Made by a program: the position numbers and the translations under genes. Shown here piece by piece: positions 14,166 to 44,006 of a DNA stretch of 64,000 nucleotides. The stretch lies in contig NC_087078.1 of assembly GCF_026151205.1 (NCBI RefSeq), positions 19,890,265 through 19,954,264 of the forward strand, in the 5' to 3' direction. Under the pieces are notes generated by a model. That model did not search any database and was not told the origin of the DNA. It saw nothing but the letters and a program-made list of their open reading frames with translations. The number at the start of each line of letters is the position of its first letter. The first letter of the stretch is position 1. The stretch is from Bolinopsis microptera (Eukaryota; Ctenophora; Tentaculata; Lobata; Bolinopsidae).

Positions 14166-14270
14166 GATCAGTATAAATCACAAGCTCAGTGCGATAAGAA
14201 AAGGTAGATTACAGAGGAAAAATATTGATGCGTAATGAAAGTAGTAAAATGATTATGTGAGTAGTAAAAT

Positions 14271-19825: not shown

Positions 19826-20065
19826 TAATTTTTAATGTTCTGTTTTCTACCGAGTTTGGATACTACTATACTAGTTAGTAGTAAGTAATATATATATAAT
19901 AAGTTGGATAACCTACAAAATAGTATGGTAGTATGACAACTGGCTCTAATTTAAATATAGCGATTAGGTTGGGATTCTGGCTGTAATTGCGCTCAAAAGT
20001 CAAATCTAATCGTGTAACGAGAGTAAATATAAAGTGGTGACGTCAGAGAAAAATAGTCATATTAT

Positions 20066-21301: not shown

Positions 21302-21309
21302 ATTTAGTT
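21302..21309. repeat. Target site duplication, left (ATTTAGTT)
   Basis: Eight bases identical to 22059-22066, immediately outside the inverted termini of the foldback element. Eight-base duplications are typical of hAT-superfamily and some related transposases. Confidence 0.75.
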
Positions 21310-22058: not shown

Positions 22059-22066
22059 ATTTAGTT
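22059..22066. repeat. Target site duplication, right (ATTTAGTT)
   Basis: Matches 21302-21309 exactly; see the foldback element. Confidence 0.75.
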
Positions 22067-24754
22067 TTATATTTACTTTTCCCTTAGTTTTGATATACAT
22101 ATTATTTTCTAGTAGTTATGTTTTCAGAAGTGGCCATTGAATTGGGGTTTTTATTTTTAACTGATTATGTAAACAATAAATTAGTTCATTAGAGGTAATA
22201 CCCTTACGACGGGCTTTCAATCAATTCAATGAAAACTTATTACAGTGGAATTCTACCCTACCCCGTAATATGTTTGGGTGGAATCCTACCGTGAAATTCC
22301 ACAGGGCTGTGTCAGGCTTCTCGTATAGTTTCCTGGTCAGTGCTGGATAGTACACTCTGGGCACTAACTTAGTACTGTACACTGTGCAAACTCTGGGCAC
22401 TAACTACTAGTACTACTCACTTAGAGCTCTATATCAAAGACTAGTAATTACACTCATCAATATCTAGTTGGTGCTCACTTTGGTTCAGATAAATATGTTT
22501 AGTAACTCTTTAATAACTCTTTAGCAACTTTGTTAGAGTTTAAGTAACCAATACTCTGGCTGTACCAGTGAAGTTGTTAAGCCTTGTCCGCTATAACAGT
22601 ATAATTGATAAAGTGAGCCAGATGCACTTTACTTCCACATAACATACACCTACCTACCTACATGCTACAGATTTGATACAGATATGATAAGGACATGTCC
22701 TGACCAATTACAACGTATCAACGTTGCAGGCAAGGTTGCATTTAGTGAAACATTGTGTTTTGCAGAAAGGGAGAATTTGACAGAATGATTGATAACTTTA
22801 ACTGTTCCATATACTCATATAGCTGAACTTTAATGAGGACATATTATATTCTAATAAACTACCCTAATCAGCATTAACTCTTTGTAACGGTTTTAACTGA
22901 TGTCTCTAAATTTAGAGGTTTGCCCATTTGAACATGTCACGTGATCACTTAACCTGTTCTCTTCCTGTGTGGGCGTATCACTTAAAATCATTTAGCTCAA
23001 CCTGGGCATATCCCATTACCCAAAACCTGCGTACATTTCAGTATCCTCGATATATTATATAATATAATATAATACGCCCTGGCACTAAATTTTAAAATCT
23101 GCAATTTGCGTCGATTTTTTTTCAAACTCACGAAATACGGTCATAAAACTTCCTCTACAAAAATCTTAAATATGACTACTAAATAACGAAGCTTTTATAA
23201 AATCACGTTGTCTATTTCACGTCACGTCAAAATGGTACTCAATTTACGGCGCTGTGAAAGAACTGTCACTGCCCCCCTGCACTTAGCATGTTGTCTTTGA
23301 AATGTCTGACCAACAACCCCTCCTCTCACCTCTGAGATATAGGTCTCCAGGGGAATATTCCTGGTATACTGACACCTGCCAATATCCTCTATTAATTTAA
23401 GGCTCGAGAGGGTGGGGCTGCTATGTGCGCAACTTACTCTCTCTGTTGCTTGGAGTATTGCTAATAAAGATCTTATTCGGCCTGGGGCGTTAAGTTAAGA
23501 TCTGAGCAGTATTATGATATTATTTAATATTGTCAATATTATTGAATATCAGAGGGGTGTGGAGTTATTATTTTCTGATGAAAATGAAATGAACCGTTTA
23601 TATGACGTCTTATGTATATTGTGACGAAATCAACAATCCTTTCAATCCAAGCTAAAAGTATTAGCTTATATTATGGTGATTTCCCCATTAACTTCTTGGG
23701 GAGATGAAGGTGGGACCTGAGTCTTCATGGACCTTTACAGTTTACAGGCCTGTCGGTGGAGTGATGACTGACGTCGGGATAATAATACTACTAATATATA
23801 AATACTATAGAACAAGAAGATATTAACGATAGACATTAAACCATGAAGATACTGCAGTTTGTTATGCAGTATAGACAGTTCATTACGGGCGGTTTGTAGG
23901 CTACTACCCTCATTCTCACACTGCTTGCAACATAGACCTGCACTCTGCAGTGCAATACCGAAAACCTGCATGTTCACTGTTGAGCCATGTTCAGGCTGAA
24001 GAAATGGAACTGGAAGTTCTCCATGATTTCGGCTCTCAATCCGAATCAATCTATGACGTCTTGTCAGTATCATTATAACATAGACAACATGACAGATGGT
24101 ATAGGTATTGCAACTAATTCGTGCAAATTTTGAATGTAAAGGGGGCCGGGGGAAACAATATTGTGAATCATGGAAATTGATTTAAAGTTGTAGTAATGAC
24201 AGGATACAGTAGGATACCGCTCGATAGATTGCAAAAATCTTTTTTCCAATTAGGCATAGGCCCCATTCCAAAGTGTATTTTGATGCTGTCTGTGATGTAT
24301 ATAATGAAATATAATGTTTAAAATATGTCTGGATCGGGATTGGTTGCATTTTCTTATGAATAACAAAGTCATATCCTCATCATAAATACAGAATTAAATA
24401 TTTAGTAGATTGGGTTAAATGAGAATTATATCCACAGTATCCTGTAATTGGCTAAAAGATAAGAACATGACGTTGTTTGAACAGGCCGGGAAAATGCAGA
24501 TCTATTTTTAACCCCCCAATTTCTCGGTTCCAATTAAGTTATTTGATTGGTTGTTGAGTATTAAAGTGGCGTACCAGTGCGTGGGCATGTCTGGTATGTG
24601 TTGTGAGACAATTATTATTTATACGACCACCCACAAATATACTGCTTGTCAGTCTTAAGTCAATTATATTACATTGGAAAATTAGAGGTTTCATTATATT
24701 CTATAAACTAAATATTCTATAGACTAAATAAGTCATTATTAAAGTTTCACTACT

Positions 24755-24811
24755 CAATAAAATGACTGACATATCTTGCGATCGACTATCATATCATTCT
24801 TTTTTATCTAT
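24755..24811 (+). repeat. 57-bp direct repeat, copy 1
   Basis: CAATAAAATGAC followed by ATATCTTGCGATCGACTATC and CATTCTTTTTTATCTAT. Repeated with two or three changes at 25538-25594. The two copies bracket about 730 bp holding the inverted dispersed repeat and a small inverted-repeat element. Confidence 0.85.
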
Positions 24812-24968
24812 CTTACTATATATAAAGCGAGACGATACATATTATATATCCGTACCATTTTACTGACACCACGGCATCAACTTTAACACGACTCTTTGCA
24901 AAAACCGTAAAAGATAAACAACTTAAACTTTTTTGATTGGTTCAAATGCTTTAATGGCCTTCAAATCA
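24811..24968 (-). repeat. Dispersed repeat, copy 2 (inverted)
   Basis: Reverse complement of 15121-15275 with a few differences. It begins directly at the end of the 57-bp direct repeat, suggesting insertion at that point. Confidence 0.8.
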
Positions 24969-25342
24969 ATAGTTCTCTGCAGACTGTTGTATAGATTAAC
25001 AACTTTTACCGATGCTTCGCCTCCCCAACTTACAGACATTTAACTTGTTAAATACTAAGGGTTTACGACGAGACGGATAAACCGTTAACTTATGTTAAAT
25101 AATGGTAAAACTATTGACTATACAGTATTATACGACTTAACAACTCCAAGGGCGAGCCAAGAAGGGAACCCGGAGGCTACAGTATTAAAGTGTCAAGACA
25201 TTACAAATTCAAAAGAAACTAACTGAATCTGAGTTTCAATGTCTAGGCATAATAGAAAAAAAGGATTTCTATTGCACTGTCAGTTACTTCAAAAACAACT
25301 GTCCGCAAGTAAGACGCAAATTAATATAACTACTAAAACTAT

Positions 25343-25532
25343 CTTACGAGACATATTCATATTTATGTTCGACATAATTCCAGTGACCTAAATGATTTGG
25401 GAACGAAAATATGGGAATTTTCACCTAAAACTGCCACGATGATGGTGATCTAAATTTTGGTAGTCCGAAAATATGGTGTTTTTTTTTCGAAAAACCACCG
25501 ACTTTTTGTACCATTTAAATATGTCTCGTAAG
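25343..25532. mobile_element. MITE, CTTACGAGACATAT family
   Basis: About 190 bp with terminal inverted repeats CTTACGAGACATAT. The interior has a TTTGGTAGTCCGAAAATATGG stretch related to the interior of the larger relative at 59059-59564. No coding capacity; superfamily unknown. Confidence 0.65.
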
Positions 25533-25537
25533 GCATT

Positions 25538-25594
25538 CAATAAAATGACAAACATATCTTGCGATCGACTATCATATCATTCTTTTTTATCTAT
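25538..25594 (+). repeat. 57-bp direct repeat, copy 2
   Basis: See 24755-24811. Confidence 0.85.
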
Positions 25595-26171
25595 TTATTT
25601 AAATCAAAGTCATATTCCTCAATTATAATCGCGTTGATGCGGGACAGGTTGGAAATTAAATAGCAAAAAGGTTGTTCTAGATCTTATGATTCTTGTAGAT
25701 TATTAAGACTCTTCAGTTTTGACGAACCCCACCCTGAGAAGTAAAAGGCTCAGTCACATTAACATGATTACTTCCTTATCATATATCTCAGCTTCTTGGA
25801 CACCACATTTTGAAGATTCAAGCCTGCCATATTTTAGAGATTGACCCACGAAACCCCGCTCTAAATTCCTCTTTATAAGACATAACCCTTCCATGTGCCC
25901 ACCATTTATAGTTTATACTAAATGATTTTGAGACTCTTCTTTAACACCTGACATCATATTTTTTCCCGGGAAATTTGAGTTATATTAATCCATCTCAAAG
26001 GTTGCATTTTAGAATTTGTCATTATCAATCCTTCTCTGACAACCTCTTGACAGAACCGGTTAAGTTTCAATCGATCTGGTTCGGTTATAAAAATTGCGTT
26101 CTTAAAATTAAAATTACATTTTTGGAACCATTTTATTTAAAGAACACCACACAATATACTCAGAACTATTA

Positions 26172-27548
26172 ATGTCACTCTTTTTAATACAGGGATTAGA
26201 TAGTGATAATCTCAAGAATTACAGACCAATATCTAACCTTAGTTTTGTGGGCAAGTTGATAGAAAGAGTAGTGCTCAGGCGTCTAAATGAACATCTAGAA
26301 AACAACAACCTGAACATCCCACAGCAGTCTGGATACAAATCAAAACACAGCACCGAGACTCTGCTTGTGAGAGTTGTTAACGATCTACTCATTGCATCTA
26401 CAGAAAGCAAGGCAACTGTTGTTCTTCTCCTAGATCTCAGCGCAGCTTTTGATACAGTTGACCACTGCAAACTACTGAACATCCTCAGAAATGAGTTGGG
26501 AATAACAGGGACAGCTTGGAAATGGTTCAGCAGCTTCCTCACAGGTAGATGTCAAACGATTAAAGTTGGAAATGAGGAATCTTATGAGATAGTGATTAAG
26601 TTTGGAGTCCCACAGGGCTCTGTGCTGGGTCCGGTCCTGTTCAACATCTACATTCGCTCTTTGTACTCAGCAGCACATGATTTGAACTTCTCCATCCAGG
26701 GTTACGCCGACGATCATCAGCTGTATAAAAGTTTCAAGCCAAACGAGGAGCCCACCGTCCTTATCAACGATGTTCCCAAATGTTTCCAAGAAATTAATGA
26801 CTGGATGAAAAAACATTATCTACAGCTCAATGCAGGAAAAACTGAGATTCTTGTCTTTGGGACACCGCTTGTTCTCCAGCAGCTGTCTATAGGGGGCGTG
26901 TTTGTTAACTCTGAGACGTGTGTCAGGCTGTCACCTGTTGCAAAGAACCTCGGATTTCGTCTCGACTCTCAACTAAACTTTGGTGAGCAAATCAAGCAAC
27001 TTAAAACATCGTGTTTTCTGAAACTAAGAGACCTTGCTAAGATGAAAACATTCCTCACAACCAAACAGATGGGAACACTGACTCAAGCAATTGTAATCTC
27101 ATCGCTTGACTACTGCAATGCACTTTACTATGGTTGTAGTCAAGCCTCAATTACGCAGCTGCAGAACATTCAGAACCGAGCATGCCGTCTGGTTTTTGGA
27201 TTAAAGAAGAGAGACTCAGTCGAGGAGAAGCTCAAATCCCTTCATTGGCTCAAGGTGAAGGAGAGGATTGAGTTTAAGTTATGCTTACTGATTTTCAAAG
27301 CAGTCAATGGTGTTGCTCCTGCATATCTGTGTGATCTAGTAACATTTGTTAGTTCGAGTAGCAGAAGAACTTCCTCCTTACACCTACCCGTCGGATCTAC
27401 AAGATCACACCCAAGAGCGTTTCAGACTGTTGCTCCGAAAATCTGGAACCAACTACCAATTGAAATTAAGACTTGTTCCGATGTTGATCTGTTCAAAACA
27501 TTATTAAAAACTCACCTGTTTAAGAAAAGTTATGGCATGAGCGATTAA
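26172..27548 (+). pseudogene. 5'-truncated LINE reverse transcriptase (CR1/L2-like)
   Basis: An open frame of 458 codons. It starts within the fingers of a reverse transcriptase (LDSDNLKNYRPISNLSFVGK) and runs through KHSTETLL, LLLDLSAAFDTVDH, FGVPQGSVLGPVLF, the catalytic GYADDHQLY, and a conserved C-terminal block (NIQNRACRLVFGL, LHWLKVKERIEFKL, FKAVNGVAPAYL) to a stop. The endonuclease and the start of the reverse transcriptase are gone, the usual 5' truncation of LINEs. There is no internal stop or frameshift, so the insertion is recent. It differs clearly from the LINE at 7.9-14.3 kb. Confidence 0.85.
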
Positions 27549-27824
27549 TTGACAATATAATAACTTTATGTTATTTGCTTAAACTGTTTAGGATGCAACC
27601 TAATGTCATGATCTTTTTGAACTTATTAGCAATTAGACTGTTAGCTCGCTTCACAAGCATGTCATCTTCGTTCCAAAACTTTTTATGTCCTATGCATACA
27701 CTCCTTGATAGTTATCTTGATCTAGTATCTTTGTTTCACACAATAGAGCATAAGTTTTGTGGTTTATCCACTGGGCTTAGAGTTTGTGTTTAAGCTACCA
27801 AATTTTATTATTATTATTTATTAC
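27549..27824 (+). mobile_element. 3' end of the truncated LINE, ending in ATT repeats
   Basis: About 275 bp of 3' untranslated sequence after the LINE stop, ending in TTTTATTATTATTATTTATT, the short-repeat tail often left by CR1/L2-type elements. The insertion as a whole is about 26190-27824. Confidence 0.6.
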
Positions 27825-29575
27825 ATCTTAAATAGACGAAAATAGAATATGAGTTGACGATCTTTTGTTAGATATGTCACAAGATGTTTACGGTACACTT
27901 CTGTGTAAAAGTACATTACTTTTGTAGTCAACTCGTAGCTCAAATCTGGTACAATAAGGTAAAATCCCATTATTATTGCATCTCCTGATTTATAAGTTCT
28001 ACAACTCAGGAGACTGGCTGTTAGCTGGTTAGTTAATATTACATTTATTTTACCAGGTACCCAGGTCAGTGGTGTAATGTTGCCTGTTGCAGGTAATGGT
28101 AATTTTACCAACTCCCCTAGCTGCATTTAATTTTGTGCCTATCCACAAAGCGGTATTAATCTTAGTTTCCTGCACTCTGTACAATTTCAGAGTTTCAATA
28201 ATGTCAATATTATATATATTCAAGCCACAGCGATTCATCCAAGAAACTATAGACATCGTTTATTTTTAGAGTGCATTAACATATCCCAGAGCACTGTGTC
28301 ATATTTCATTGTAGTCCCAGTAATAGTAACTTTAAAATAACAGACAGCCTCCAAGAAAGCAATTACTTTCATGCAAGAAATATCTCATTTCTCAACTATT
28401 ACAGAAGAGCCTGATATGTCCAATTGTTATCCCAATCTGATGTGTACACTCCGTACCAATGACCATCTTTATATTATTGTGTACATCTTTTCTCGCTCAT
28501 GACTATAATTAGATATCTTAAATTAGCTGCAGTTAAGTGTGGTGGTATTATATCGGACGTCTTTCTGATGTATGGATGATTAGCTAATTGGATAATTGAC
28601 TGAAAATTAGCTGGAATCATGGTGAAATATTTCGGGGAATTAGGAAGTAAGAACTGGTGGTAAATATATCGTATTTTGACTTGAAACTAAGGTTTACTAT
28701 TGATTCCGTCATGTAAGCCTCAAATTATTTTTTCTAAAGAAGTGTTGAAAGTTTTAAAAGAGTATTACCAATGGTAAATAATGAGAATTTTTTTTAGCCG
28801 ATTGAAAAGCCGGTTAATAGTGAGTAACAGAAGAAATGTAACTTTTATTTGACACTTCAGTGAGTGCTACTACTACTACTAGTGTTCAGTGAGTGTAGTA
28901 GTAGTAGTAGTTCAGTGAATGTAGTAGTAGTAGTAGTTCAGTGAGTGTAGTAGTAGTAGTAGTTCAGTGAGTGTAGTAGTAGTAGTAGTTCAGTGAGTGT
29001 AGTAGTAGTAGTTCAGTGAGTGTAGTAGTAGTAGTTCAGTGAGTGTAGTAGTAGTTCAGTGAGTGTAGTAGTATTAGAAGTTCAGTGAGTGTAGTAGTAG
29101 TAGACAGTAGTAGTAGTTCAGTGAGTGTTTATATATTATATTTATATAATATATATCCTAAAAAAGTATTCTGGCACATAAAACAAGGCTTCACCTATCG
29201 TAACCTCGGAAACATAATCCAACAATAAATGTTACAATTTACTTTCGACAAAGAAGATCATTCGGAATATTTTTAACAGTTGAGATACATCCAGATGCCA
29301 CTCATTAATTACTATAACTGTCACATGGACATTTCAATCACTCACTATGCAGTATGTTCCGCTGTAAATTTCTGATGTAACTTGAGTTTTGTATTGGGGG
29401 AGGCGAATCAATATTAATTTCAAGAACTCAACTTAACCGTACCCTGTGTATTGAAACGCAGGGTTGGATCTAATCATCTTTAGTGAACCGCCTAACCAGC
29501 ACCGGCTCGACTTAAATATTAATAATCATGTTCTGTCCTGACACCACTCTTTACTGACACAGATATTAATTTCAG
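27825..29575. other. Non-coding stretch, probable kinase intron
   Basis: No exon recognised. It contains the TAG-rich minisatellite at 28857-29128. Confidence 0.5.
28857..29128. repeat. TAG-rich minisatellite (TTCAGTGAGTGTAGTAGTAG)
   Basis: About 10 copies of GTTCAGTGAGTGTAG plus 1-4 TAG triplets, so the unit varies between about 18 and 27 bp by whole triplets: a microsatellite nested in a minisatellite. Confidence 0.9.
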
Positions 29576-29636
29576 GTTTAGCTCGGGCAAAGTCAGTCCC
29601 AACACATTCCTACTCCAACGAAGTCGTCACTTTGTG
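29576..29636 (+). CDS. CDK14: CDK14/15-family kinase, exon with activation segment
   Basis: Acceptor TAATTTCAG and donor GTCAGT bound a 61-bp exon. It reads (G)LARAKSVPTHSYSNEVVTLW, the activation segment that follows the DFG motif. The wording is nearly that of vertebrate CDK14/CDK15 (PFTAIRE) kinases, including the NEVVTLW just before the YRPP block. The first two bases complete the Gly of DFG and the last two begin Trp, finished by the exon at 32484. Upstream exons (ATP-binding loop, PFTAIRE helix, HRD loop) were not found in the window and may be in the gap, further away, or too diverged in short exons. These kinases act with cyclin Y at the plasma membrane. Confidence 0.85.
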
Positions 29637-30957
29637 GTCAGTACAATGATATCTTTTTGAATGTTCAATGAAAATTGTTCATTGATTTTTAAAATGTATT
29701 ATATGGACACGTTCATTGAAGTTTGAGGATATTGGTAAATCTAAAAAATAGCGTTTTCGACGATAGTGGCTTAATTTTGACATCTTTTAATCTAGCATGT
29801 TCAGAAGTTTTGAACATTAGCCACGTGACCCATACTCTCATATACACTGCCCAGAAAGAAAATATATTGCTGTCAGACACTATAATGGTTAAAATGTCAC
29901 ATTTTTGTGACTTTGTTAAAACTATATAGTATTTCATCTGCGATAGTGAAGTCCCAGCCGTAGGCACGGGTTACACTAGTATGTACACTAGTATGTTAAT
30001 AATTCAAGTAATGTATCACAATCTGCAATTGATTGGTTCACACATGTCTACGATCGTATATTTCTTTTAAAGGTATAATGAATGATGGTTTTGTGTAACC
30101 GATTGCATAACTTAGGGCTCCTAATTTTATCAGAGTGCGGAAGTCGTTAATCATCGCAAAGTTTGAACAAATTATGTAGGCATTATTATTTCTGAATAAA
30201 TATCGTAGTTCGCACGTCTCAACTGCTTAGCCATGAAAATTTCAGGTCGGTAAAAATTTGGATTTATACTTATTTGGTATTGTGTATCAGCAGACCACCC
30301 AATTTGTTGGTTTTCCTTGATTGGCTAAAACATATCACATATCTGTTTAACCGAAAGTGGATTTGTCATGGCTCCCCTGCCGATTGCCGAAGAAATTCTA
30401 ACTGCTTTATCGGATCTCTAGTGCGAGTTAAAGAAATATTGTATATATATATATTGATCAATAGAACTGGACGACGTACAAATATTTGCAATATTTGTCT
30501 CACCTGTACTATAAATAGTTTTGTCTGACAATGAATCCCTTTTTTATTATAATTAGACATACACAGCTCAATATTTGAGACAGGGAAACAACAGTTTTTC
30601 GTGGTATGCGATGGTTACCACTTCAGACTTCTCTGTAGCTAACAATACAGACCCTGAATCCACCATTCATTACTGTAATATTTCGCTTCCAACGGTGGAC
30701 GAGCCCAGCTACGCTGGAACACATTATATCGAGCGCCTTTTCTTGCACCTTTGTTCATATTGTTCAGCTGTCAACAATGCCATTATGCCAATACTACCTT
30801 GATAGCGTGACAAGTACAAATACCTTGTATATAAGACCTGTATGTTTGAGGTCCAGACTCCAGCTGGTGCTGCTAACCAGTGGGGTTTGACACACTATCA
30901 TAATATCGTAATCCTGGATTACAGTACTCTCATTATATAATAGCGTCATCCAGCCCA

Positions 30958-30995
<38 letters not shown>

Positions 30996-31243
30996 TTCTC
31001 TATCTCCCACGCATTTCATTAATGGTGCTTTGAGTTTCACGACAATGTCCCGTATTTTTGGATAGATAATCATTAAACTTATATACGAATAAATTTAATC
31101 ATTCCAAGACTAGTTGATTATTAAAATGTTCCATCATGTGAACTGAATCACTTACAACTCCGAAGACAATTTTCTCTGTTTTCTGAAACTTTCGTTTAAA
31201 ATTCACTTCAATTTATATCATAGAAAGGCATTAATGCGTTAAT

Positions 31244-31310
31244 AGTAATTTTACTATTAATATGTATATAACTGTAATTATTACAGTTATATACTAATAG
31301 TAAAATTACT
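31244..31310. repeat. Long imperfect palindrome (AT-rich)
   Basis: Two nested arm pairs: AGTAATTTTACTATTA with TAATAGTAAAATTACT, and GTATATAACTGTAAT with ATTACAGTTATATAC, almost without a loop. It could extrude as a cruciform or form a hairpin in RNA. Confidence 0.85.
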
Positions 31311-31370
31311 GCAAACCAGGAGCCTATTTAAAAACGATCTTTCCTTTACTCTTATTTTAATGTGGGCAGT

Positions 31371-31430
31371 ATCCAAGAAGCTCGACTTAATCCGCGGGCT
31401 GGTCCGCGTACTAGGTCGAGCTTCTTGGAT
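31371..31430. repeat. 16-bp perfect inverted repeat with GC-rich loop
   Basis: ATCCAAGAAGCTCGAC and its exact complement, separated by 28 bases that contain CCGCGGGCTGGTCCGCG, itself able to pair. A stable hairpin in either strand's RNA. Confidence 0.85.
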
Positions 31431-31699
31431 TCTTGTTTCAATGCGAAGATTCACCGATCAGAAGTCTGGAATCTAGAACATTCTATCATTTTAAGCTCTC
31501 TATTTGCCGTTAAAGGATGCTACGTCCTGTCCTGTAAATCTTTCAAGTTAAACGATATTTTAACTTACATACCTTTCAATGACATCATACCATGAAGTCG
31601 ATGTGAATTCTCTATTTGGGCGGTTAATGATCCACCACCATAAGTTAGATAATCGGCTGTGCAGAAGCGGGAGGTTGCCGAATCTCGTATAATGGTTGT

Positions 31700-31782
31700 T
31701 CTAATCCCAGAGAGATTTGTTCCAATCCCAGAGAGATTTGTTCCAATCCCAGAGAGATTTGTTCCAATCCCAGAGAGATTTT
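31700..31782. repeat. 21-bp direct repeats, four copies
   Basis: Four copies of TTCCAATCCCAGAGAGATTT (first one slightly changed), back to back. Confidence 0.9.
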
Positions 31783-32016
31783 ATCTGTGGATAAAATGTA
31801 CGGTTTAAAAAGTATTGATGGCATTGGTTCCTTGATCCCTATGGCTACAGGCTGAACATTCTTAAGGGGGGTTCACCCTGATTTTTTTGCGAAATTTGAT
31901 TTGGAGATAGCATTGACTAACAAACTAGGGCCTGTGACCGAACTTTTGAGGGGGTTCAGGACTCCGAGTGCCCACCGGTGCCCGCGGGACCTAATGAGTT
32001 AGGCCTTTAAAAAATT

Positions 32017-32069
32017 TTGGCGGCCAAATTCTGAAAAATGCCCGGCAAATTTCAGAATTTGGCCGCCAA
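32017..32069. repeat. 20-bp perfect inverted repeat
   Basis: TTGGCGGCCAAATTCTGAAA and its exact complement with a 13-base loop. Related TTTGGCGG/CCGCCAAA words occur in the inverted-repeat element near 59.1-59.5 kb, so this may be the core of an old element. Confidence 0.8.
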
Positions 32070-32483
32070 ATTGTTTTCCAAAACCTAAGGTCATCAGGCG
32101 ATTCTACGTTGATTCTGGAAATTTAATAAAAAAATATTGAAACCCTATTGAGTTCTATTATTTTGAACGAAATCAGTTTCGCGAATATCGCGAACTGAGA
32201 TATGGGCGATTTTGTTCATTTTTTGCGATTATTTGAATACAGAATCCACAGTTAGGTAGATATTGAGCTGATAATCATAGAGAATGTGTAGTTTAGGCTT
32301 ACCTTTTGCGTTAAGTTAGTTTCATTCAAAAATATTGATATCTGATCAATTTATGGGCCAAAATCGATCAAATTTGGTGCTAATAACTCAAAATGTGCCT
32401 CAAATCAACAATCTCAACAAACGTAATAATATAACTCCAATAATTACATAATTATAATAATTAACTGTAATTATCTGATCCAG

Positions 32484-32637
32484 GTACCGGCCCCCAGACG
32501 TGCTCCTCGGGTCCACTGACTACAGCACATCCCTGGATATGTGGGGTGTGGGGTGTATCTTCGCTGAGATGATATCTGGTATCCCTCTCTTCCCGGGGAT
32601 GAAGGACGTTAAGGATCAGCTCGCTAAGATATGGCAG
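32484..32637 (+). CDS. CDK14: CDK14/15-family kinase, YRPP/DMWGVGC exon
   Basis: Acceptor GATCCAG; the first base completes Trp, then 51 codons: [51 protein letters not shown]. This covers the P+1 loop, helix F (DMWGVGC with the structural Asp) and the start of the insert region, very close to vertebrate CDK14. The first donor is CAG|GTTCGT at 32638. The last 30 nt of this exon plus 11 nt of intron form the unit of the 41-bp array that follows. If splicing failed here, translation would add [18 protein letters not shown] and stop at 32692. Confidence 0.9.
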
Positions 32638-35600
32638 GTTCGTTCTATGTTAAGGATCAGCTCGCTAAGATATGGCAGGTTCGTTCTATGTTAAGGATCA
32701 GCTCGCTAAGATATGGCAGGTTAGTTCTATGTTAAGGATCAGCTCGCTAAGATATGGCAGGTTAGTTCTATGTTAAGGATCAGCTCGCTAAGATATGGCA
32801 GGTTCGTTCTATGTTAAGGATCAGCTCGCTAAGATATGGCAGGTTCGTTCTATGTTAAGGATCAGCTCGCTAAGATATGGCAGGTTAGTTCTATGTTAAG
32901 GATCAGCTCGCTAAGATATGGCAGGTTAGTTCTATGTTAAGGATCAGCTCGCTAAGATATGGCAGGTTAGTTCTATGTTAAGGATCAGCTCGCTAAGATA
33001 TGGCAGGTTAGTTCTATGTTAAGGATCAGCTCGCTAAGATATGGCAGGTTAGTTCTATGTTAAGGATCAGCTCGCTAAGATATGGCAGGTTAGTTCTATG
33101 TTAAGGATCAGCTCGCTAAGATATGGCAGGTTAGTTCTATGTTAAGGATCAGCTCGCTAAGATATGGCAGGTTAGTTCTATGTTAAGGATCAGCTCGCTA
33201 AGATATGGCAGGTTCGTTCTATGTTAAGGATCAGCTCGCTAAGATATGGCAGGTTCGTTCTATGTTAAGGATCAGCTCGCTAAGATATGGCAGGTTAGTT
33301 CTATGTTAAGGATCAGCTCGCTAAGATATGGCAGGTTAGTTCTATGTTAAGGATCAGCTCGCTAAGATATGGCAGGTTAGTTCTATGTTAAGGATCAGCT
33401 CGCTAAGATATGGCAGGTTCGTTCTATGTTAAGGATCAGCTCGCTAAGATATGGCAGGTTCGTTCTATGTTAAGGATCAGCTCGCTAAGATATGGCAGGT
33501 TAGTTCTATGTTAAGGATCAGCTCGCTAAGATATGGCAGGTTAGTTCTATGTTAAGGATCAGCTCGCTAAGATATGGCAGGTTCGTTCTATGTTAAGGAT
33601 CAGCTCGCTAAGATATGGCAGGTTCGTTCTATGTTAAGGATCAGCTCGCTAAGATATGGCAGGTTCGTTCTATGTTAAGGATCAGCTCGCTAAGATATGG
33701 CAGGTTAGTTCTATGTTAAGGATCAGCTCGCTAAGATATGGCAGGTTAGTTCTATGTTAAGGATCAGCTCGCTAAGATATGGCAGGTTAGTTCTATGTTA
33801 AGGATCAGCTCGCTAAGATATGGCAGGTTCGTTCTATGTTAAGGATCAGCTCGCTAAGATATGGCAGGTTCGTTCTATGTTAAGGATCAGCTCGCTAAGA
33901 TATGGCAGGTTCGTTCTATGTTAAGGATCAGCTCGCTAAGATATGGCAGGTTCGTTCTATGTTAAGGATCAGCTCGCTAAGATATCGCAGGTTAGTTCTA
34001 TGTTAAGGATCAGCTCGCTAAGATATCGCAGGTTAGTTCTATGTTAAGGATCAGCTCGCTAAGATATGGCAGGTTCGTTCTATGTTAAGGATCAGCTCGC
34101 TAAGATATGGCAGGTTAGTTCTATGTTAAGGATCAGCTCGCTAAGATATGGCAGGTTAGTTCTATGTTAAGGATCAGCTCGCTAAGATATGGCAGGTTAG
34201 TTCTATGTTAAGGATCAGCTCGCTAAGATATGGCAGGTTAGTTCTATGTTAAGGATCAGCTCGCTAAGATATGGCAGGTTCGTTCTATGTTAAGGATCAG
34301 CTCGCTAAGATATGGCAGGTTAGTTCTATGTTAAGGATCAGCTCGCTAAGATATGGCAGGTTAGTTCTATGTTAAGGATCAGCTCGCTAAGATATGCCAG
34401 GTTAGTTCTATGTTAAGGATCAGCTCGCTAAGATATGCCAGGTTAGTTCTATGTTAAGGATCAGCTCGCTAAGATATGGCAGGTTAGTTCTATGTTAAGG
34501 ATCAGCTCGCTAAGATATGGCAGGTTAGTTCTATGTTAAGGATCAGCTCGCTAAGATATGGCAGGTTAGTTCTATGTTAAGGATCAGCTCGCTAAGATAT
34601 GGCAGGTTCGTTCTATGTTAAGGATCAGCTCGCTAAGATATGGCAGGTTCGTTCTATGTTAAGGATCAGCTCGCTAAGATATGGCAGGTTAGTTCTATGT
34701 TAAGGATCAGCTCGCTAAGATATGGCAGGTTTGTTCTATGTTAAGGATCAGCTCGCTAAGATATGGCAGGTTCGTTCTATGTTAAGGATCAGCTTGCTAA
34801 GATATGGCAGGTTAGTTCTATGTTAAGGATCAGCTCGCTAAGATATGGCAGGTTAGTTCTATGTTAAGGATCAGCTCGCTAAGATATGGCAGGTTCGTTC
34901 TATGTTAAGGATCAGCTCGCTAAGATATGGCAGGTTCGTTCTATGTTAAGGATCAGCTCGCTAAGATATGGCAGGTTCGTTCTATGTTAAGGATCAGCTC
35001 GCTAAGATATGGCAGGTTCGTTATATGTTAAGGATCAGCTCGCTAAGATATGGCAGGTTCGTTCTATGTTAAGGATCAGCTCGCTAAGATATGGCAGGTT
35101 AGTTCTATGTTAAGGATCAGCTCGCTAAGATATGGCAGGTTCGTTCTATGTTAAGGATCAGCTCGCTAAGATATGGCAGGTTAGTTCTATGTTAAGGATC
35201 AGCTCGCTAAGATATGGCAGGTTCGTTCTATGTTAAGGATCAGCTCGCTAAGATATGGCAGGTTCGTTCTATGTTAAGGATCAGCTCGCTAAGATATGGC
35301 AGGTTAGTTCTATGTTAAGGATCAGCTCGCTAAGATATGGCAGGTTAGTTCTATGTTAAGGATCAGCTTGCTAAGATATGGCAGGTTCGTTCTATGTTAA
35401 GGATCAGCTCGCTAAGATATGGCAGGTTAGTTCTATGTTAACGATCAGCTCGCTAAGATATGGCAGGTTCGTTCTATGTTAAGGATCAGCTCGCTAAGAT
35501 ATGGCAGGTTAGTTCTATGTTAAGGATCAGCTCGCTAAGATATGGCAGGTTAGTTCTATGTTAAGGATCAGCTCGCTAAGATATGGCAGGTTAGTTCTAT

Positions 35601-37569
35601 GTTAAGGATCAGCTCGCTAAGATATGGCAGGTTAGTTATATGTTAAGGATCAGCTCGCTAAGATATGGCAGGTTCGTTCTATGTTAAGGATCAGCTCGCT
35701 AAGATATGGCAGGTTAGTTCTATGTTAAGGATCAGCTTGCTAAGATAAGGCAGGTTAGTTCTATGTTAAGGATCAGCTTGCTAAGATATGGCAGGTTAGT
35801 TCTATGTTAAGGATCAGCTTGCTAAGATATGGCAGGTTCGTTCTATGTTAAGGATCAGCTCGCTAAGATATGGCAGGTTAGTTCTATGTTAACGATCAGC
35901 TCGCTAAGATATGGCAGGTTAGTTCTATGTTAAGGATCAGCTCGCTAAGATATGGCAGGTTAGTTCTATGTTAAGGATCAGATCGCTAAGATATGGCAGG
36001 TTAGTTCTATGTTAAGGATCAGCTCGCTAAGATATGGCAGGTTAGTTCTATGTTAAGGATCAGCTCGCTAAGATATGGCAGGTTCGTTCTATGTTAAGGA
36101 TCAGCTCGCTAAGATATGGCAGGTTAGTTCTATGTTAAGGATCAGCTCGCTAAGATATGGCAGGTTCGTTCTATGTTAAGGATCAGCTCGCTAAGATATG
36201 GCAGGTTCGTTCTATGTTAAGGATCAGCTCGCTAAGATATGGCAGGTTAGTTCTATGTTAAGGATCAGCTCGCTAAGATATGGCAGGTTCGTTCTATGTT
36301 AAGGATCAGCTCGCTAAGATATGGCAGGTTAGTTCTATGTTAAGGATCAGCTCGCTAAGATATGGCAGGTTAGTTCTATGTTAAGGATCAGCTCGCTAAG
36401 ATATGGCAGGTTAGTTCTATGTTAAGGATCAGCTCGCTAAGATATGGCAGGTTAGTTCTATGTTAAGGATCAGCTCGCTAAGATATGGCAGGTTCGTTCT
36501 ATGTTAAGGATCAGCTCGCTAAGATATGGCAGGTTCGTTCTATGTTAAGGATCAGCTCGCTAAGATATGGCAGGTTAGTTCTATGTTAAGGATCAGCTCG
36601 CTAAGATATGGCAGGTTAGTTCTATGTTAAGGATCAGCTCGCTAAGATATGGCAGGTTCGTTCTATGTTAAGGATCAGCTCGCTAAGATATGGCAGGTTC
36701 GTTCTATGTTAAGGATCAGCTCGCTAAGATATGGCAGGTTAGTTCTATGTTAAGGATCAGCTCGCTAAGATATGGCAGGTTCGTTCTATGTTAAGGATCA
36801 GCTCGCTAAGATATGGCAGGTTCGTTCTATGTTAAGGATCAGCTCGCTAAGATATCGCAGGTTAGTTCTATGTTAAGGATCAGCTCGCTAAGATATGGCA
36901 GGTTCGTTCTATGTTAAGGATCAGCTCGCTAAGATATGGCAGGTTAGTTCTATGTTAAGGATCAGCTCGCTAAGATATGGCAGGTTAGTTCTATGTTAAG
37001 GATCAGCTCGCTAAGATATGGCAGGTTAGTTCTATGTTAAGGATCAGCTCGCTAAGATATGGCAGGTTCGTTCTATGTTAAGGATCAGCTCGCTAAGATA
37101 TGGCAGGTTCGTTCTATGTTAAGGATCAGCTCGCTAAGATATGGCAGGTTAGTTCTATGTTAAGGATCAGCTCGCTAAGATATGGCAGGTTAGTTCTATG
37201 TTAAGGATCAGCTCGCTAAGATATGCCAGGTTAGTTCTATGTTAAGGATCAGCTCGCTAAGATATGGCAGGTTCGTTCTATGTTAAGGATCAGCTCGCTA
37301 AGATATGGCAGGTTAGTTCTATGTTAAGGATCAGCTCGCTAAGATATGGCAGGTTAGTTCTATGTTAAGGATCAGCTCGCTAAGATATGGCAGGTTCGTT
37401 CTATGTTAAGGATCAGCTCGCTAAGATATGGCAGGTTCGTTCTATGTTAAGGATCAGCTCGCTAAGATATGGCAGGTTAGTTCTATGTTAAGGATCAGCT
37501 CGCTAAGATATGGCAGGTTAGTTCTATGTTAAGGATCAGCTCGCTAAGATATGGCAGGTTCGTTCTATG
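32608..37569 (+). repeat. 41-bp minisatellite made of an exon end and its 5' splice site
   Basis: 4962 bp, about 121 copies. The first copy (32608-32648) is the real exon-intron boundary: GTTAAGGATCAGCTCGCTAA, GATATGGCAG, then intron GTTCGTTCTAT. Every later copy repeats the last 30 coding bases and the donor. Two donor versions alternate irregularly, CAG|GTTCGT and CAG|GTTAGT; the second is closer to consensus. Rare variants change the sequence next to the donor (ATATCGCAG, ATATGCCAG). No length variant was noticed. The last copy is followed by GGCTTTCTCTATGGCTTTCT, presumably the original intron. Because 41 is not a multiple of 3, use of a later donor usually changes frame. Confidence 0.97.
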
Positions 37570-39656
37570 GCTTTCTCTATGGCTTTCTCTTAAATTTGTC
37601 AAGATGTGCGGTAAGAATTCCCTGTCAGTTCTGATTTTATCATATTTTTTACTCTTGATCCTAATTTCTCATCAACCGTATCAATCTACTGCCCACTCGT
37701 CTCACTCGAGTGAGACCTTTAAAGGTCTTATATCCTAATATTAAACCTTTGTTCACGTATTTTGATTATAACTATTTTATTCACGAGAGAAATAGATCTT
37801 ATATTAAGCATTCCATTCCATTGGTTTCGCCAGAAAATACTTAAGATATTCAAGATATATTCTGTTTTCCAAAACTAAGATACGTTCGGATTAATTTCCT
37901 CGCTTATCAGGTTGGCGTTACGTTATTTGGAAATTTTCGGTATTGAATCATGATTCGATTTGAATGATATCAATGCTGCGGTGTATTTGGCGGGAATTGA
38001 TTTCATAATGATAAATCAAGTTAGACGAAGGCTGTTCACCATTGACACAAGGATTTTGTTGGGAAATGTGGAAAAAATGTCCCCCTTAATCGAGTTTAAC
38101 CTTTGTTTTTAAGCCTTGCACAACTAGATATATTATATATACAAGGCCCAGACCCTTTGGCGTATCTGTTGTAAATCTTGTGGCGATGTAATATCTATGA
38201 CACCACTAAAAATTGAGGAATAGGGAAGTGTTCACAATATCCAACTTAGCATGGTAAACTTATGCTATCTCTGGCTGAAGATTAACAACTCTAACAGTAT
38301 TTATTTTAATCAACTGAGAAACATTTGGTCTTGTTACCTTATCAATTTTATCGAAATCGAACGATGCAGTACAAAGATATTCCGTTTTAAAATTCATGGT
38401 AATATTGAAGTAGAGAAAAGTTCGTCACTTGCTATTAAAACATGTGCTCCTTCATAAATAGTATCATTATCGTGATCAAACCCCTTATTTATGGGCCTGC
38501 CAGTCTCTTCTGAAGCACGAATGAACCTAATTTCTACTGTCCGAGAAAAGTTCAGAATTTTCTCTAAACACCCATTTTTGAATTTTGTAAATCGGTGGTC
38601 CGGAAGCGGAGTTATGGTTCAATGAAAATTGTTAGTTTAACGCTGTTTGTATTGTCATTATCAGAAGTGACGAAAACATATGTCACCCCACTGTATATAG
38701 TGGGCGGAACAATATTTATATATCGCACGCGCCCGCACGTGCGATATATATTATATATTATAGAAACATGTCATTTGCTCGCGGGCTGAGAAATATCGGG
38801 CCCTTTTACTAGCGGGCTGCGCGGGCCCGCTGTAGATCTACTTACTAATCTTTTAAGACCTTTTGTCATTTGTGTACTGTACGTCACTACGACCACAGAA
38901 TAATGGCTTAGTACCGTTTTTGCTGTTTCGTCACACACCTTTCTTTTTATCTTAGAATAACATCTCTCAGCCATAACATCTCTCAGCTATAGTTTGTACT
39001 ATAAAAAGATTATATTCATTGCAGCTAACTTCACGTTAAATGGCCTCAGATCGACAGATCCAGGTCTCAATTTAGAATAGTCCGATGGATCTCATATTTA
39101 TGTAACGCGCGGTCTTATTTTCTTTATGAAAATATTACATCTGACCCGTTTACTGTATCAGAAAGTATTGCTTCGATCGCGCGTGATTTAGGAAACAAAT
39201 AAATGTGAAACTTTTACCCGAGCCCTGTCCATTTGAAGCTTAATTAGATAAATGAATTTCGTGTGATATTACATTCAAAATCCTCATATGAAATGGTCCG
39301 GGATTTCCAGGTCCTTCCGTCTAAATTGTCACTGTTTCCGGGGCTCGTTTCTAGAACGCGCATTCAAGTATCTCTGATTCTCTAGCTTATGTACCCACTT
39401 AACAATTAATCAACTTTGATTTGCTTGTGCTTCAAATAACTGTCTTTATGTTGTCACAGTAGCACTACTGTGAAAACATAAAGACAGATTGTCTTCATTC
39501 ATGCTTTAACGATATCTTTCTCTACTGCCATTTTCAACCCTGGCATCAGTGGAACGAAAAACTCAATTTAGGTTTAGTGTTTATTTGGTCACCATGAAAT
39601 TATTGCTGAGCAAGTGACTGTATCAAATTGACTGACAACTAATCCTGCTATTTCAG
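37570..39656. other. Remainder of the kinase intron
   Basis: About 2.1 kb after the array with no exon recognised. It includes hairpin-forming repeats at 38720-38752 (ATATATCGCACG arms) and 39440-39487. Confidence 0.55.
39440..39487. repeat. 22-bp inverted repeat with four-base loop
   Basis: CTGTCTTTATGTTGTCACAG plus TA, loop GCAC, then the complement with a single mismatch. A compact hairpin in the kinase intron; too short for a typical pre-miRNA, possibly the remains of a small inverted-repeat element. Confidence 0.8.
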
Positions 39657-39720
39657 ATAATGGGGACACCTACTCCACAAACCTGGCCCAATTGTACCAA
39701 GTATTCTGACTGGGGTAAAC
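39657..39720 (+). CDS. CDK14: CDK14/15-family kinase, LGTP-equivalent exon
   Basis: Acceptor CTATTTCAG, donor GTAAGT. In phase 0 after KIWQ it reads IMGTPTPQTWPNCTKYSDWG K plus one base. In vertebrate CDK14 the matching stretch reads LGTPNEDTWPGV, so the junction to exon 32484-32637 is well supported and skips the whole array. Confidence 0.85.
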
Positions 39721-39829
39721 GTAAGTCAACTTTATTATCTTAAAATGTGTAGTGACTCGACTCAAGAGCGATATTGAATTTAAAGTGGTAACCGAGGTAA
39801 CCATATTAAATTACCCACAATTTTTGCAG

Positions 39830-39878
39830 GAAAGTACGAGAAATATCCTAAGCAGCGATTTATAGATGTTATCGCCAA
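39830..39878 (+). CDS. CDK14: CDK14/15-family kinase, short exon
   Basis: Acceptor TTTTTGCAG, donor GTAAGT. Two bases complete Arg, then KYEKYPKQRFIDVIA and two bases of Asn. Only 49 bp. It replaces the variable helix-G region of the kinase; the phases at both ends fit its neighbours. Confidence 0.8.
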
Positions 39879-40144
39879 GTAAGTACTGAATGATGTTTGA
39901 ATTGGCTTCATAATAATCGAGTTAACTAAGTGAACTATACAAATGTTTGGCAAATAACAACAATTTATTAAACTGGTTTGACCTTAATTTTTTGAATTAC
40001 AAACGATACTACCAGATGGAGTTGGCGCTCAAGATCACTTCATGTGATCTTCAAGATCACTGATCTTGATTATGTTATTTAGATAATAGAAAGTCAAGGT
40101 AGCTTAAAAGCATTATTTCAACCCTAAACCATTTCACTTTTCAG

Positions 40145-40284
40145 TCTCTCAGACGATCTTGATGGTGAAGATTTGTTGTCCCAGATGTTAGTGTTTGAAC
40201 CCAGTGAGCGTATAGCCGCGTCTGTGTCTCTAAAACACCGTTATTTCGGAGTTCTGCCTGAAGCTGTGCATCACCTACTGCCGA
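40145..40284 (+). CDS. CDK14: CDK14/15-family kinase, C-lobe end
   Basis: Acceptor CACTTTTCAG, donor GTGAGT. It reads (N)LSDDLDGEDLLSQMLVFEPS, ERIAASVSLKHRYFGVLPEA, VHHLLP plus one base. The DLLSQML ... P.ER.AA ... H.YF pattern is subdomain XI of CDKs, with the invariant Arg (ERIAA) that bonds to helix F. Confidence 0.85.
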
Positions 40285-41484
40285 GTGAGTCCTAGTCGAT
40301 ATTGGTATCTTGCGGTTTAGTTGAATTATCTGCCTGAATCCCTTAACGTACGTTACCAGTTACGATTGGTTCAGGGAAATTTTTTTAAATTGTTATTTTT
40401 TATTTTCTGAAAATCTAACAATACATATTTTTAGTTGAGTCGATATATCTCAACGATCTTGTTGAGTTTCCTGGATAGTAGACCGCCCGACTAGGATCAT
40501 AGATTCAGACGTTACTACCGACCAATGGGACCCCCCACCTCTGTCCCCACAGGATAGAAACCGGACTGATGAATGAACGCTGTGACGACGATTTTAACTG
40601 CATTCACTGGACTGTGCTCATCGTGTAGGAAAATATTTAAATTGAAACTCTATGTCAGTGTTTGGCTGGTTGTTGTGATGTCGTATTTTTCAATAGGTAG
40701 GTATAGTTTTGATGTTTAGGATCTAGTACTATCGACTTATTGAATTAACCGGAATTTGTGTAAATACATTGAATATTTTATTGATTTGACAGTACTATTT
40801 ATTATGAATCAAAATTCCGGGTGAGATTGGTAGCTTCCGTGGTTTTTTATGTAAAAAGTGATAATAATGACAATAACTTTATTGTTATCTTAACAAATCC
40901 GGATTTTAGATGAAGGTCATTGTAGACCAGAAAGATTTCTGGAGGCCTGATTTTAGACTAGATGTATTTGTTTGTTTATTTTTTCTTTTAGCAGAACGTT
41001 TGCTTATTAATGCATAATGGGTGTCTTTTAGGTCGTCATTTTACTATTTTACGAGAGGAAGTGTTTGTGTTGTAAGCCTGTGTTAGGTTAACTGTTACTT
41101 AACTTTACTTTAAATAGTTTAATGGTGTCGTGCTGCTAGATGTTTTGTTTTTATTATATTATTAAAAATCTCATATCTTGTGAAGCGCTTTGAATAATTC
41201 GGAGAGAATTTCCTAGTAAAACTATTGTGTATACCCAGAAAATTTGTATTGAACGATCTAGATAGTCATCCACCTTGTGTAAATATTAATTCTAGAAAAT
41301 AATAATGTCGTTAATTTTTATAACAGTTTTTAAAGTAGTCATAAATAGTAAATATCATCATTACGATTGTTGTTGTTACAGTTAAGCACTCAATCATTGT
41401 ATTTAAGGAAATTAAATTGCCATGTAAAAGAGAAATAAATTTCAATCGTGTGAAACACCTTATCGGTGTTAATTTTTCCGGCCC

Positions 41485-41607
41485 TTAGGGGTCGTTCACA
41501 TATTGCGTAATCAGCCGAGGGGGAGGGGGGTTTCCAAATGATTACGCTAGTGTAATTTTGACTCAATAGCTATTTGTAAAACTGATTAATATGTGAACGA
41601 CCCCCTA
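41485..41607. mobile_element. MITE, GGGGTCGTTCACATATT family, copy 1
   Basis: 123 bp with inverted ends GGGGTCGTTCACATATT(G)CG and its complement, and an internal G-rich tract. Relatives lie at 60.56-60.74 kb and 62176-62345. No duplication of the target is visible at this copy. Confidence 0.7.
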
Positions 41608-42262
41608 CATTTCAATTTTGAGAGGTTAGGGCCTGAATGCTTTGTTTGTTACTATTGTTCAATGGCCATGTTTCATCTGTTAGCCGTTCATTGAAGTTCA
41701 GAATTCAAATGTCTCCGTTCTAAACTGGCTACGAAACATTGATGAGGTATTATAAACACTTCAATTAGGTTGAAAGAAGTCTGCAAAATTAGGTTCATAA
41801 TTTAGTATATTAACACCTTGCCGTTGACAGACCCAATGTTTCAATATGCGAAATTATTCGATAATAATATTCAATGTTATTTGTATTTTTCCTGTGAATA
41901 ATGTGATTAAGAATGAAATAAGAATTTCTGATTTCTTTAATTCGAAGTCTAACGTAATTGTTATTAATAATTGCAAAGCGGCTGTGGGAACTGTTAATGT
42001 TATTTCATATCTAAGACTAAACGCTAAAGGAATTGCCTTATCCATACTTGACCCGGACGTCAAGCATATATTATGATACTAGTGTAATTATGTAATTATA
42101 TAATTAATATATAATTATATAATAACTGGTATAACCCGGCCTTCGGCCGGGATTTCACTGCCGCAGTTTAAAAAGGTAGGAGTATTCACCCGTTGTGTCA
42201 AAACCCGCATTAGGTGAGCAATTCTATTCGGAGTGCCCTCACGTATCCAATGGTTTCTTAAA

Positions 42263-42563
42263 CAATAGTGGATGATGATTAATCACTCGACTGTCACGTG
42301 ACTTTTTCAACCCGTTCTCAAGCTGGCCCTAGCTGAAAGACTATTCGCAATTCGAAACGACAAATCACAAAACCCTCTAATCTGATCCCAACCCTAACCC
42401 TAACCCAATCACTAACAAAAGCATATGCTCAAACCCTAACCGTAACAAGAAATTCGACCAACTTCCTTCAGCTTCTCCGATCATATCACGTGATTAAAAC
42501 AGTTTTTCGCCAGGGGAGCATTTTAACCCTATGTCATGAGGGTGATTCTGAATCAGCCGCGCA
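42263..42563 (+). repeat. Dispersed repeat with telomere-like CCCTAA words, copy 1
   Basis: About 300 bp matching 61317-61607 in the same orientation. Shared words include GATGATGATTAATCACTC, GTCACGTGACTTTTTCAACC, several CCCTAACCCTAACCC, CATATCACGTGAT and GCATTTTAACCCTATGTCAT. The CCCTAA runs are short and internal to a repeat, so they are not a telomere. Confidence 0.8.
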
Positions 42564-42894
42564 CTCGTGCCCGGTTGGTCATACAACGTATGACAATATA
42601 AATCCAAAACACCTTGTTTTAGGGGGTGCACGATAAAATTAAACTAGCTCGGATTTAAAAAAATTTTCTATCATTGTTTTCTGAGACTGTAAGAATTTTC
42701 ACAGTACAAAATTTGTCATACCTTTTTTGAATAGTTAATGAATTTCGCCTCGATGCCAAATTTGATGGCGCGCGGCTTTTGGAGCAAAAGCAGTTGTATG
42801 TAAAAGTTGCGTATTTTGCCGTAATTCGTTAATTTTTGTCGTATTATTCTGTCATATCTTCGGTTCCTTGAATGAGATCATTCTGAAAATTGGT

Positions 42895-42975
42895 TACCTG
42901 AGGACCCCAGGCTATTATGTTCATTAACATAAAGATTTGGCGGAATGACAGGCTGAGCGCGGCCCAGTAAAAAAT
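42895..42975 (+). repeat. Dispersed repeat ending GCGCGGCCCAGTA, copy 1
   Basis: ACCTGAGGACCCCAGGCTAT ... TTGGCGGAATGACAGGCTGA, GCGCGGCCCAGTA. Similar copies lie at about 43634-43712 and 60855-60946, and an inverted one at 44007-44048. The inverted pair suggests TACTGGGCCGCGCTCAGCCT is a transposon terminus. Confidence 0.7.
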
Positions 42976-43003
42976 TGGTGAAGACCTTCCAATAGGGCTT
43001 TCA

Positions 43004-43203
43004 TTGTATCACGTTGCGACCCCCACGGTCGTTTCACTATGTCATACAACGTATGACAAGGCTTTCACAACTGTTCAAAAAATTTGGTGGATATCGGAGT
43101 TGATATTGTCATACGTTGTATAACCCGCCGCGCCGCGCAGGAAGTGCGCAGCTGATCCCCCTGTATCGTCAGAAACGACCGTGGGGGTCGCAACGTGATA
43201 CAA
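43004..43203. mobile_element. MITE with perfect 32-bp inverted termini
   Basis: 200 bp. The ends TTGTATCACGTTGCGACCCC, CACGGTCGTTTC are exactly complementary. Inside are two further near-palindromes of GTCATACAACGTATGAC. A decayed second end (GTAGAAACGCTGATGAGGGT) is seen at about 43586-43628. Perfect arms indicate a young insertion or arm conversion. Confidence 0.8.
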
Positions 43204-44006
43204 AGTTGATATAGTAATGAAAATGGGGCAAAATACGCCCCATCACTAATGTTCAATGTTTGATTGTGGGATAAGCTTTAAATTTTTCGGACACTTTCCT
43301 TGTAAGTCTATGAGTAAGCTAATCAATTTTTGTTAAAATTTGATCAAGGGAAAGTTACTCAAAACGCATTTGTTTCAAGAATTTTGTGCTGGCCGAAATT
43401 AGCGCTAAAAACCATCCTACAGCCGGCACGCGCGGCTCACTGTCGATGGCGCACTTATATTATACCTACTTGTTCATTGCATATTTAATGAACCCGGCGC
43501 GCGCTACTATAAGACGTTGTGCCTTGACCTTGTCATACGTTGTATGTTGTATGACCCGCCGCGCATGAGTGCGCGGCTACCGTACCCCTGTATCGTAGAA
43601 ACGCTGATGAGGGTCACGACGTGATACAACCTTTACCTGGGGACCCCAGGCTATCATGTTCATAAACATAAAACATAGAATATAGATTCAGCGGAGTGAC
43701 AGGCTGACTGCCGCTTTAACGGGTGATACTTGTAAAATATTTGTTTCAAGACTGGTATGGCAACGTGTCCAAATCCAAACTCGGCGCGCGTCTTGGTAGG
43801 TTATAAATTTACAAAGCGCCGCCCGGCGCCCAGTAATATGCCTCGGCCCTCGGGCCATATTTCGAGAAGAAAGCGGCGCGCGCTACTTCGAAGAAATTTA
43901 GACGAGTAACATCCGTCAATTCATTTAGCCGATCTAGCGAGAAGCATTATTGGATGCGCGGTGTGGTTCAATAGTGCATCGTGCTACGATGGGCACGCTT
44001 GTTTTT

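Follow-up and report, generated by a model that had tools for sequence, protein, structure and literature searches.

Tandem minisatellite-like duplications that span intron-exon boundaries were described in amphioxus globin genes, where they were named mirages and leave regular splicing undisturbed (PMC3087553). The BflGb6 gene carries 6 and 3 units on two haplotypes (PMC3087553), and the sparing of edge units from homogenisation, reported for BflGb6 only, is not a defining feature of mirages. The units of Adh3 measure 10-72 bp and show somatic instability (as described in PMC3087553 and PMC3902484); troponin C, a mirage, and PGBD5, with similar duplications, are further amphioxus cases (PMC3902484). 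Human genes in segmental duplications contain variable internal tandem repeats at exon-intron boundaries (PMC2812944), and UBC has tandem dual-specific splice sites (PMC10809524). Here, we analysed a 64,000-nt stretch of the ctenophore Bolinopsis microptera (the window; assembly GCF_026151205.1, contig NC_087078.1, hereafter C7, C7:19890265-19954264), in which a 41-bp unit spanning a 5' exon-intron boundary of a CDK14-type kinase gene is repeated 121 times. An initial annotation of this DNA knew of no described gene with such an arrangement; the amphioxus mirages (Adh3, globin, troponin C) and the human boundary repeats had in fact already been described. We consider it likely that the array is a mirage in the kinase gene, mostly a passenger, and that the first donor is the one used.

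In anatomy the kinase array matches the mirages, and it is far longer than the cases compared. Like Adh3, BflGb6, BflGb9 and troponin C, it is a tandem minisatellite across an exon-intron boundary with AG/GT kept in many units. The BflGb9 repeat also lies on the donor side, that of exon 2, and the difference in unit number between the BflGb6 haplotypes may have its counterpart in two copies of the kinase region (121 and 14 units), which may be alleles or duplicates. In contrast, the kinase array is 98% uniform and belongs to a ctenophore, and its units are shorter than the 150-160 bp of the globin genes. The human boundary repeats are similar in that minisatellite copy number differs between near-identical gene copies, but they average 30-bp units in 4 copies and their novel introns are backed by RNA, whereas no new intron is shown in the kinase gene. 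UBC also has AGGT in tandem; however, its coding units are spliced between units, whereas the kinase units are 41 nt, break the frame and offer a poor acceptor context. In intron gain by tandem genomic duplication the duplicated segment likewise holds AG|GT (an idea also found in PMC3087553), but the kinase case lengthens an existing intron and no new intron was seen. Our literature search found no paper joining minisatellite, splice donor, exon-intron boundary and tandem repeat, and a search on ctenophore minisatellites returned nothing on the subject, as judged by titles.

Structure of the array and its host gene

Tandem Repeats Finder (TRF), run on the 64-kb window, reported a 41-bp period at 32608-37569 with 121.0 copies, 98% matches and 0% indels. 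Cutting this segment into 41-mers gave 121 full units at 32608-37568 and one extra base; the figure of 121 depends on the assembly. Each unit consists of GTTAAGGATCAGCTCGCTAAGATATGGCAG (30 nt, the end of exon 32484-32637) followed by GTT(A/C)GTTCTAT (11 nt, the start of the intron). Unit 1 is the genuine exon-intron boundary, its exon end being in frame, and exon 32484-32637 joined to the exon at 39657 aligned to CDK16 with no gap at the junction. Thus, the composition given by the initial annotation, namely 30 coding and 11 intron bases in about 121 copies with the first one genuine, was confirmed by TRF, by the 41-mer cut, by the CDK16 alignment and by the junction of a spliced sequence, P0001, that is described below. 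The features of the gene in the window are as follows.

29576..29636, + strand: kinase exon GLARAKSVPTHSYSNEVVTLW, donor TG|GTCAGT (tblastn match 29575-29637 and frame reading)
32484..32637, + strand: kinase exon ending at the genuine donor CAG|GTTCGT (translation, CDK16 match and P0001 junction)
32638..39656, + strand: intron holding the array, 7,019 nt (2,096 nt in the second copy; from exon coordinates)
32608..37569, + strand: 41-bp array, 121 units and one base, with coding exon in unit 1 only (TRF and 41-mer cutting)
37564..37590, + strand: 12-bp repeat TCTATGGCTTTC, 2.2 copies, at the 3' edge of the array (TRF); not seen at the array edge of the second copy
39657..39720, + strand: kinase exon IMGTPTPQTWPNCTKYSDWGK, donor AAC|GTAAGT
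39830..39878, + strand: kinase exon KYEKYPKQRFIDVIA
40145..40284, + strand: kinase exon NLSDDLDGEDLLSQ...HHLLP (P0001); its end was set by hand, which makes the frame run into the last exon as in P0001
40435..40478, + strand: last coding exon IESIYLNDLVEFPG and stop (P0001)

The exons at 29576, 32484, 39657, 39830, 40145 and 40435 code for a CDK C-lobe. An upstream exon of the second copy (C7:19349119-19349196), with no counterpart in the window, contains EGTPFTAIRE, and this PFTAIRE motif is what we take as a marker of CDK14/15 kinases. Many of the named matches among the 120 listed (8,000 candidates scored) were also called CDK14. On these two grounds the sequence assigns the gene to the CDK14/15 (PFTAIRE) type, and the literal motif upholds the earlier label of a CDK14-like kinase.

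The donor core CAG|GTT was intact in 121/121 units. Position +4 was A in 71 units, C in 49 and T in a single one, whose donor reads GTTTGT; the initial annotation had rightly listed CAG|GTTCGT and CAG|GTTAGT but had missed this third form. By type, 59 units were the A consensus, 45 the C consensus and one the T variant, while 16 were changed elsewhere (17 changed cells). The variants were scattered throughout the array. The order of the +4 letters was unclustered (56 runs against 60.5 expected, P 0.22), and a search for higher-order blocks gave no clear signal, |z| being slightly above 2 at lags 2, 4 and 16 among 39 lags. Columns 28-33 and 35-36 of the unit were invariant. We considered selection on the donor letters and regard it as unproven: because 33/41 columns lack any variant and the 17 changed cells stem from fewer events, invariant donor columns are no good evidence of it. 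AATAAA and ATTAAA were absent from the array (the rest of the intron has one AATAAA and two ATTAAA), which leaves no basis for a function of the array in suppressing polyadenylation.

A second copy of the gene region

The window copy has a counterpart about 0.6 Mb away on the same contig.

19826..43495, + strand: duplicated block, with an inverted counterpart carrying large indels at C7:19318811-19339718 (blastn)

As judged by blastn of both regions, the two copies share collinear pieces of 89-99% identity. The second copy also contains the array, with exactly 14 units and CAG|GTT in 14/14 of them. Its first donor is GTTAGT, compared with GTTCGT in the window. Unit 1 thus belongs to a common type in each copy but not to the same one, the difference lying at +4; this does not look like exclusion of an edge unit, although a single mutation could also account for it. 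The A/C dimorphism at +4 and a T at unit position 15 were common to both arrays, indicating that the array was probably already present in the common ancestor of the two copies, before they split. With 121 and 14 units in two separately placed stretches, the array is length-variable.

A search of the 264.65-Mb assembly (232 contigs) found the unit at these two places only, the counts of this search being lower bounds. A chance origin of the repeat was rejected on the TRF result, the genome search and the 14-unit copy. The second copy also bears on whether a consensus step inflated an array of few true units. For the B. microptera assembly, wtdbg and HiRise were combined with gap closing, polishing and the purging of haplotigs, and its k-mer size is 254 Mb (PMC10232365, which also mentions Iso-Seq libraries for the species that it covers); wtdbg assembly, gap closing and short-read polishing could misjudge arrays, and a scaffold gap lies 12.8 kb upstream of this one. 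However, the second place has 14 units with a variant pattern of its own, and within the window array the variants are spread along its length, the longest repeated block of unit types being 9 units. An artefact therefore seems very improbable, and the initial annotation's concern that independent reads might reveal one or a few copies loses most of its force, the exact number aside.

In the second copy, ten exons were located, spread over about 35 kb. Comparison of the two copies across 135 codons (four exons) gave 9 synonymous and 0 non-synonymous changes (dN 0, dS 0.108); one more synonymous difference outside these codons was not counted, and one window exon was not comparable. By this pattern, the 121-unit copy has been under selection at the protein level and does not look like a drifting sequence.

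Whether the two copies are alleles or duplicates depends on the ends of the block. At its 5' end, the block starts at 19826, immediately behind a scaffold gap of 100 N (19726-19825). Kinase exons 5' of the block turned up next to the second copy alone, from C7:19358485 to 19341863; none was present in the window or in the 20 kb upstream of it, and a second set was not found genome-wide among the best 150 of 253 and the best 40 of 1,198 candidates. Because the block starts exactly at the scaffold gap, the assembly lacks the 5' half of the window copy, which is not to say that the genome does. At the 3' end, homology stops at 43495 within unbroken sequence of both copies, which counts against a simple alternative haplotype. 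It did not resume on the window side up to 84 kb, nor in C7:19282001-19318811 and 3 kb from 19272001, and another two stretches of 10 kb yielded no more of it. Searches with the flanks returned, besides the query itself, repeat families (best 40 of 763 to 4,725 candidates each). On balance, two alleles are slightly likelier than a segmental duplication.

These ends also leave room for the window copy being a segmental duplicate that was truncated and is decaying into a pseudogene, in which case the array would be irrelevant to a working gene. The 5' exons seen only beside the second copy in the searches made, and the stop of homology at 43495 without resumption in the fetched stretches, would fit such a history. 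The 9 synonymous and 0 non-synonymous differences do not, and with the 5' end of the block exactly on the scaffold gap the missing exons may be merely unplaced. We regard this as unlikely, but as an explanation to be taken seriously.

Donor choice and origin of the array

A query joined from the exons matched P0001, a protein of 396 aa (8 member sequences) encoded on a contig of 1,221 bases, at 99% identity over 100% of the query. P0001 joins KIWQ|IMGTP exactly, which is the normal junction without an array insert. By all signs it is a spliced sequence, since its whole coding sequence lies on 1,221 bases while the exons span about 35 kb of genome. It differed from the window in 4/170 residues, suggesting as its source a close relative or a different population, and not necessarily the same animal. 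For this close relative, P0001 contradicts the possibility, raised by the initial annotation, that the exon at 32484 is not expressed. A gene model of Mnemiopsis leidyi, P0121, has the KIWQ|IMGTP junction too and differed from the window in 12/170 residues, one of them at its foreign N-terminus.

The N-terminal part of this Mnemiopsis CDK14 model is foreign to the kinase, and the 5' half of the gene may thus be hard to assemble or annotate in that species as well.

A search for a read-through peptide of the array found no such protein: among 4 candidates there were 2 matches, P0001 and P0121, both with the normal junction. This is a weak negative, as the search would miss isoforms that decay and those beyond its length limits, and within this scope it gave no evidence for the ladder of isoforms in 41-nt steps that had been proposed.

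We then predicted what each later donor would yield. For 120/120 of them, translation ran for 14 or 18 extra codons and then hit a stop, which lay more than 50 nt upstream of the last junction. The earlier expectation of products mostly out of frame was therefore right in effect, as donors keeping the frame also run into a stop. C-type donors had a predicted U1 pairing of -6.5 kcal/mol, A-type donors one of -8.1 and the T-type donor one of -7.4; 10 further donors of the gene ranged from -4.7 to -9.1, and 72/120 downstream donors paired better than the first. Since, by predicted pairing, the later donors are no weaker than the first, use of the first donor must rest on its order, on exon context or on decay of the other products, and we infer that one or more of these would apply.

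The stronger pairing downstream is the basis for a different explanation, a length-dependent splicing brake, in which the downstream donors capture U1 and divert a share of the transcripts into decaying isoforms with stops, so that unit number tunes CDK14 dosage. Besides A-type donors that out-pair the window's first donor, it could draw on the stop behind all 120 alternative donors and on GAAG|GTTAGT, a donor elsewhere in the same kinase gene, which suggests that GTTAGT is usable. Against it stand the persistence of coding constraint on the 121-unit copy, the lack of any isoform protein in our search (decayed isoforms being hard to see) and the similar amphioxus arrays, for which undisturbed splicing is reported (PMC3087553, PMC3902484). 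We therefore think such a brake improbable. Its heritable form, a rheostat in which unit number sets the share of stop-containing transcripts and the 14- and 121-unit copies set CDK14 output with the protein unchanged, appears more doubtful still; if true, a graded role in splicing would be new for a boundary minisatellite, as far as the literature searched shows.

Every unit also contains AGGT, and CAG|GT might serve as donor and acceptor at once, with units spliced out of or into one another as in polyubiquitin UBC; such sites operate in UBC and in other human repeat genes (PMC10809524). As an acceptor, the unit scored 4.0, around the best 10% of the 3,218 AGs in the window. The 11 acceptors of the gene scored 3.3-18.5, although these same 11 built the scoring matrix (leave-one-out -8.5 to 15.3). 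The unit lacks TTTCAG, and its pyrimidine share is 0.41, compared with 0.47-0.71 in the 11 acceptors. From their sequence, the units would be poor but not impossible acceptors. The real intron, at 7,019 nt, is no multiple of 41. Together with the poor acceptor context, this leaves a dual-specific array with hardly any probability.

A passenger mirage accommodates these results as follows. A tandem duplication of 41 bp spanning the 5' exon-intron boundary of the CDK14-type gene would have started the array, which would have grown by slippage or unequal exchange. The spliceosome would pick the first, genuine donor and treat the remaining 120 units as ordinary intron. Any transcript spliced at a later donor would run into a stop after 14 or 18 extra codons, with several junctions still to follow, and its decay would be expected. 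The array would then be a nearly neutral passenger of variable length, with 121 units here and 14 in the other copy. Use of the first donor on the 121-unit copy, decay of the other products and neutrality are the inferred parts of this account. The location of the array would need no special cause, because its surroundings are rich in arrays: minisatellites (units of 10-100 bp in at least 3 copies) account for 20.2% of the window and 26.1% of the fetched second-copy region, and for 16.7% of the window's flanks. The locus is best read as real, large and probably polymorphic, a mirage tolerated by the splicing machinery.

Several observations weigh against this explanation. The genome from which P0001 derives need not carry the array, and P0001 might just conceivably be an intronless retrocopy. 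The Mnemiopsis sequence P0121 comes from a gene model whose N-terminus is chimaeric. All 71 A-type donors lie downstream, and they out-pair the window's first donor (-8.1 against -6.5 kcal/mol), which makes leakage to later donors plausible. The window copy is without N-lobe exons in the assembly and might not make a whole kinase. Finally, in 12.8 kb surrounding four other kinase exons, a small sample, the minisatellite share was only 0.8%; the high density is not uniform.

If the array is a tolerated mirage, boundary-spanning minisatellites would not be peculiar to lancelets, and a gene, probably in one of the earliest-branching animal lineages, would carry more than 100 donors without evident loss of its protein. 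The 14 and 121 nearly identical adjacent donors form a natural pair for testing how the spliceosome chooses among equal 5' splice sites.

Neighbouring repeats and open reading frames

Two arrays of one 36-bp unit were found by TRF at window positions 7234-7914 and 14270-14734, about 6 kb apart; this unit is dispersed, unlike the 41-bp unit. Inside the kinase gene region, an insertion at about 26140-27820 contains an open reading frame (ORF) for a 458-aa reverse transcriptase (RVT_1), and the second copy is collinear without it. Within the kinase gene of the second copy, a segment (L020:5071-5658) recurs on 12/13 large contigs among the candidates scored, often in tandem at steps of about 317 bp, and is thus a dispersed, satellite-like element.

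Rfam gave no match at gathering score anywhere in the window. On the minus strand, a LINE-like element at 9036-11753 has a 905-aa ORF with endonuclease and reverse transcriptase domains, and a 589-aa ORF with a 2OG-Fe(II) oxygenase domain lies at 12396-14165. A 279-aa ORF with a LamG/pentraxin-like domain was found on the plus strand at 56934-57773, and stretches related to the sequence around it occur in clusters on contig C4. A long degenerate CTCCTGGTG-like repeat occupies 48864-50742, with several open frames on both strands.

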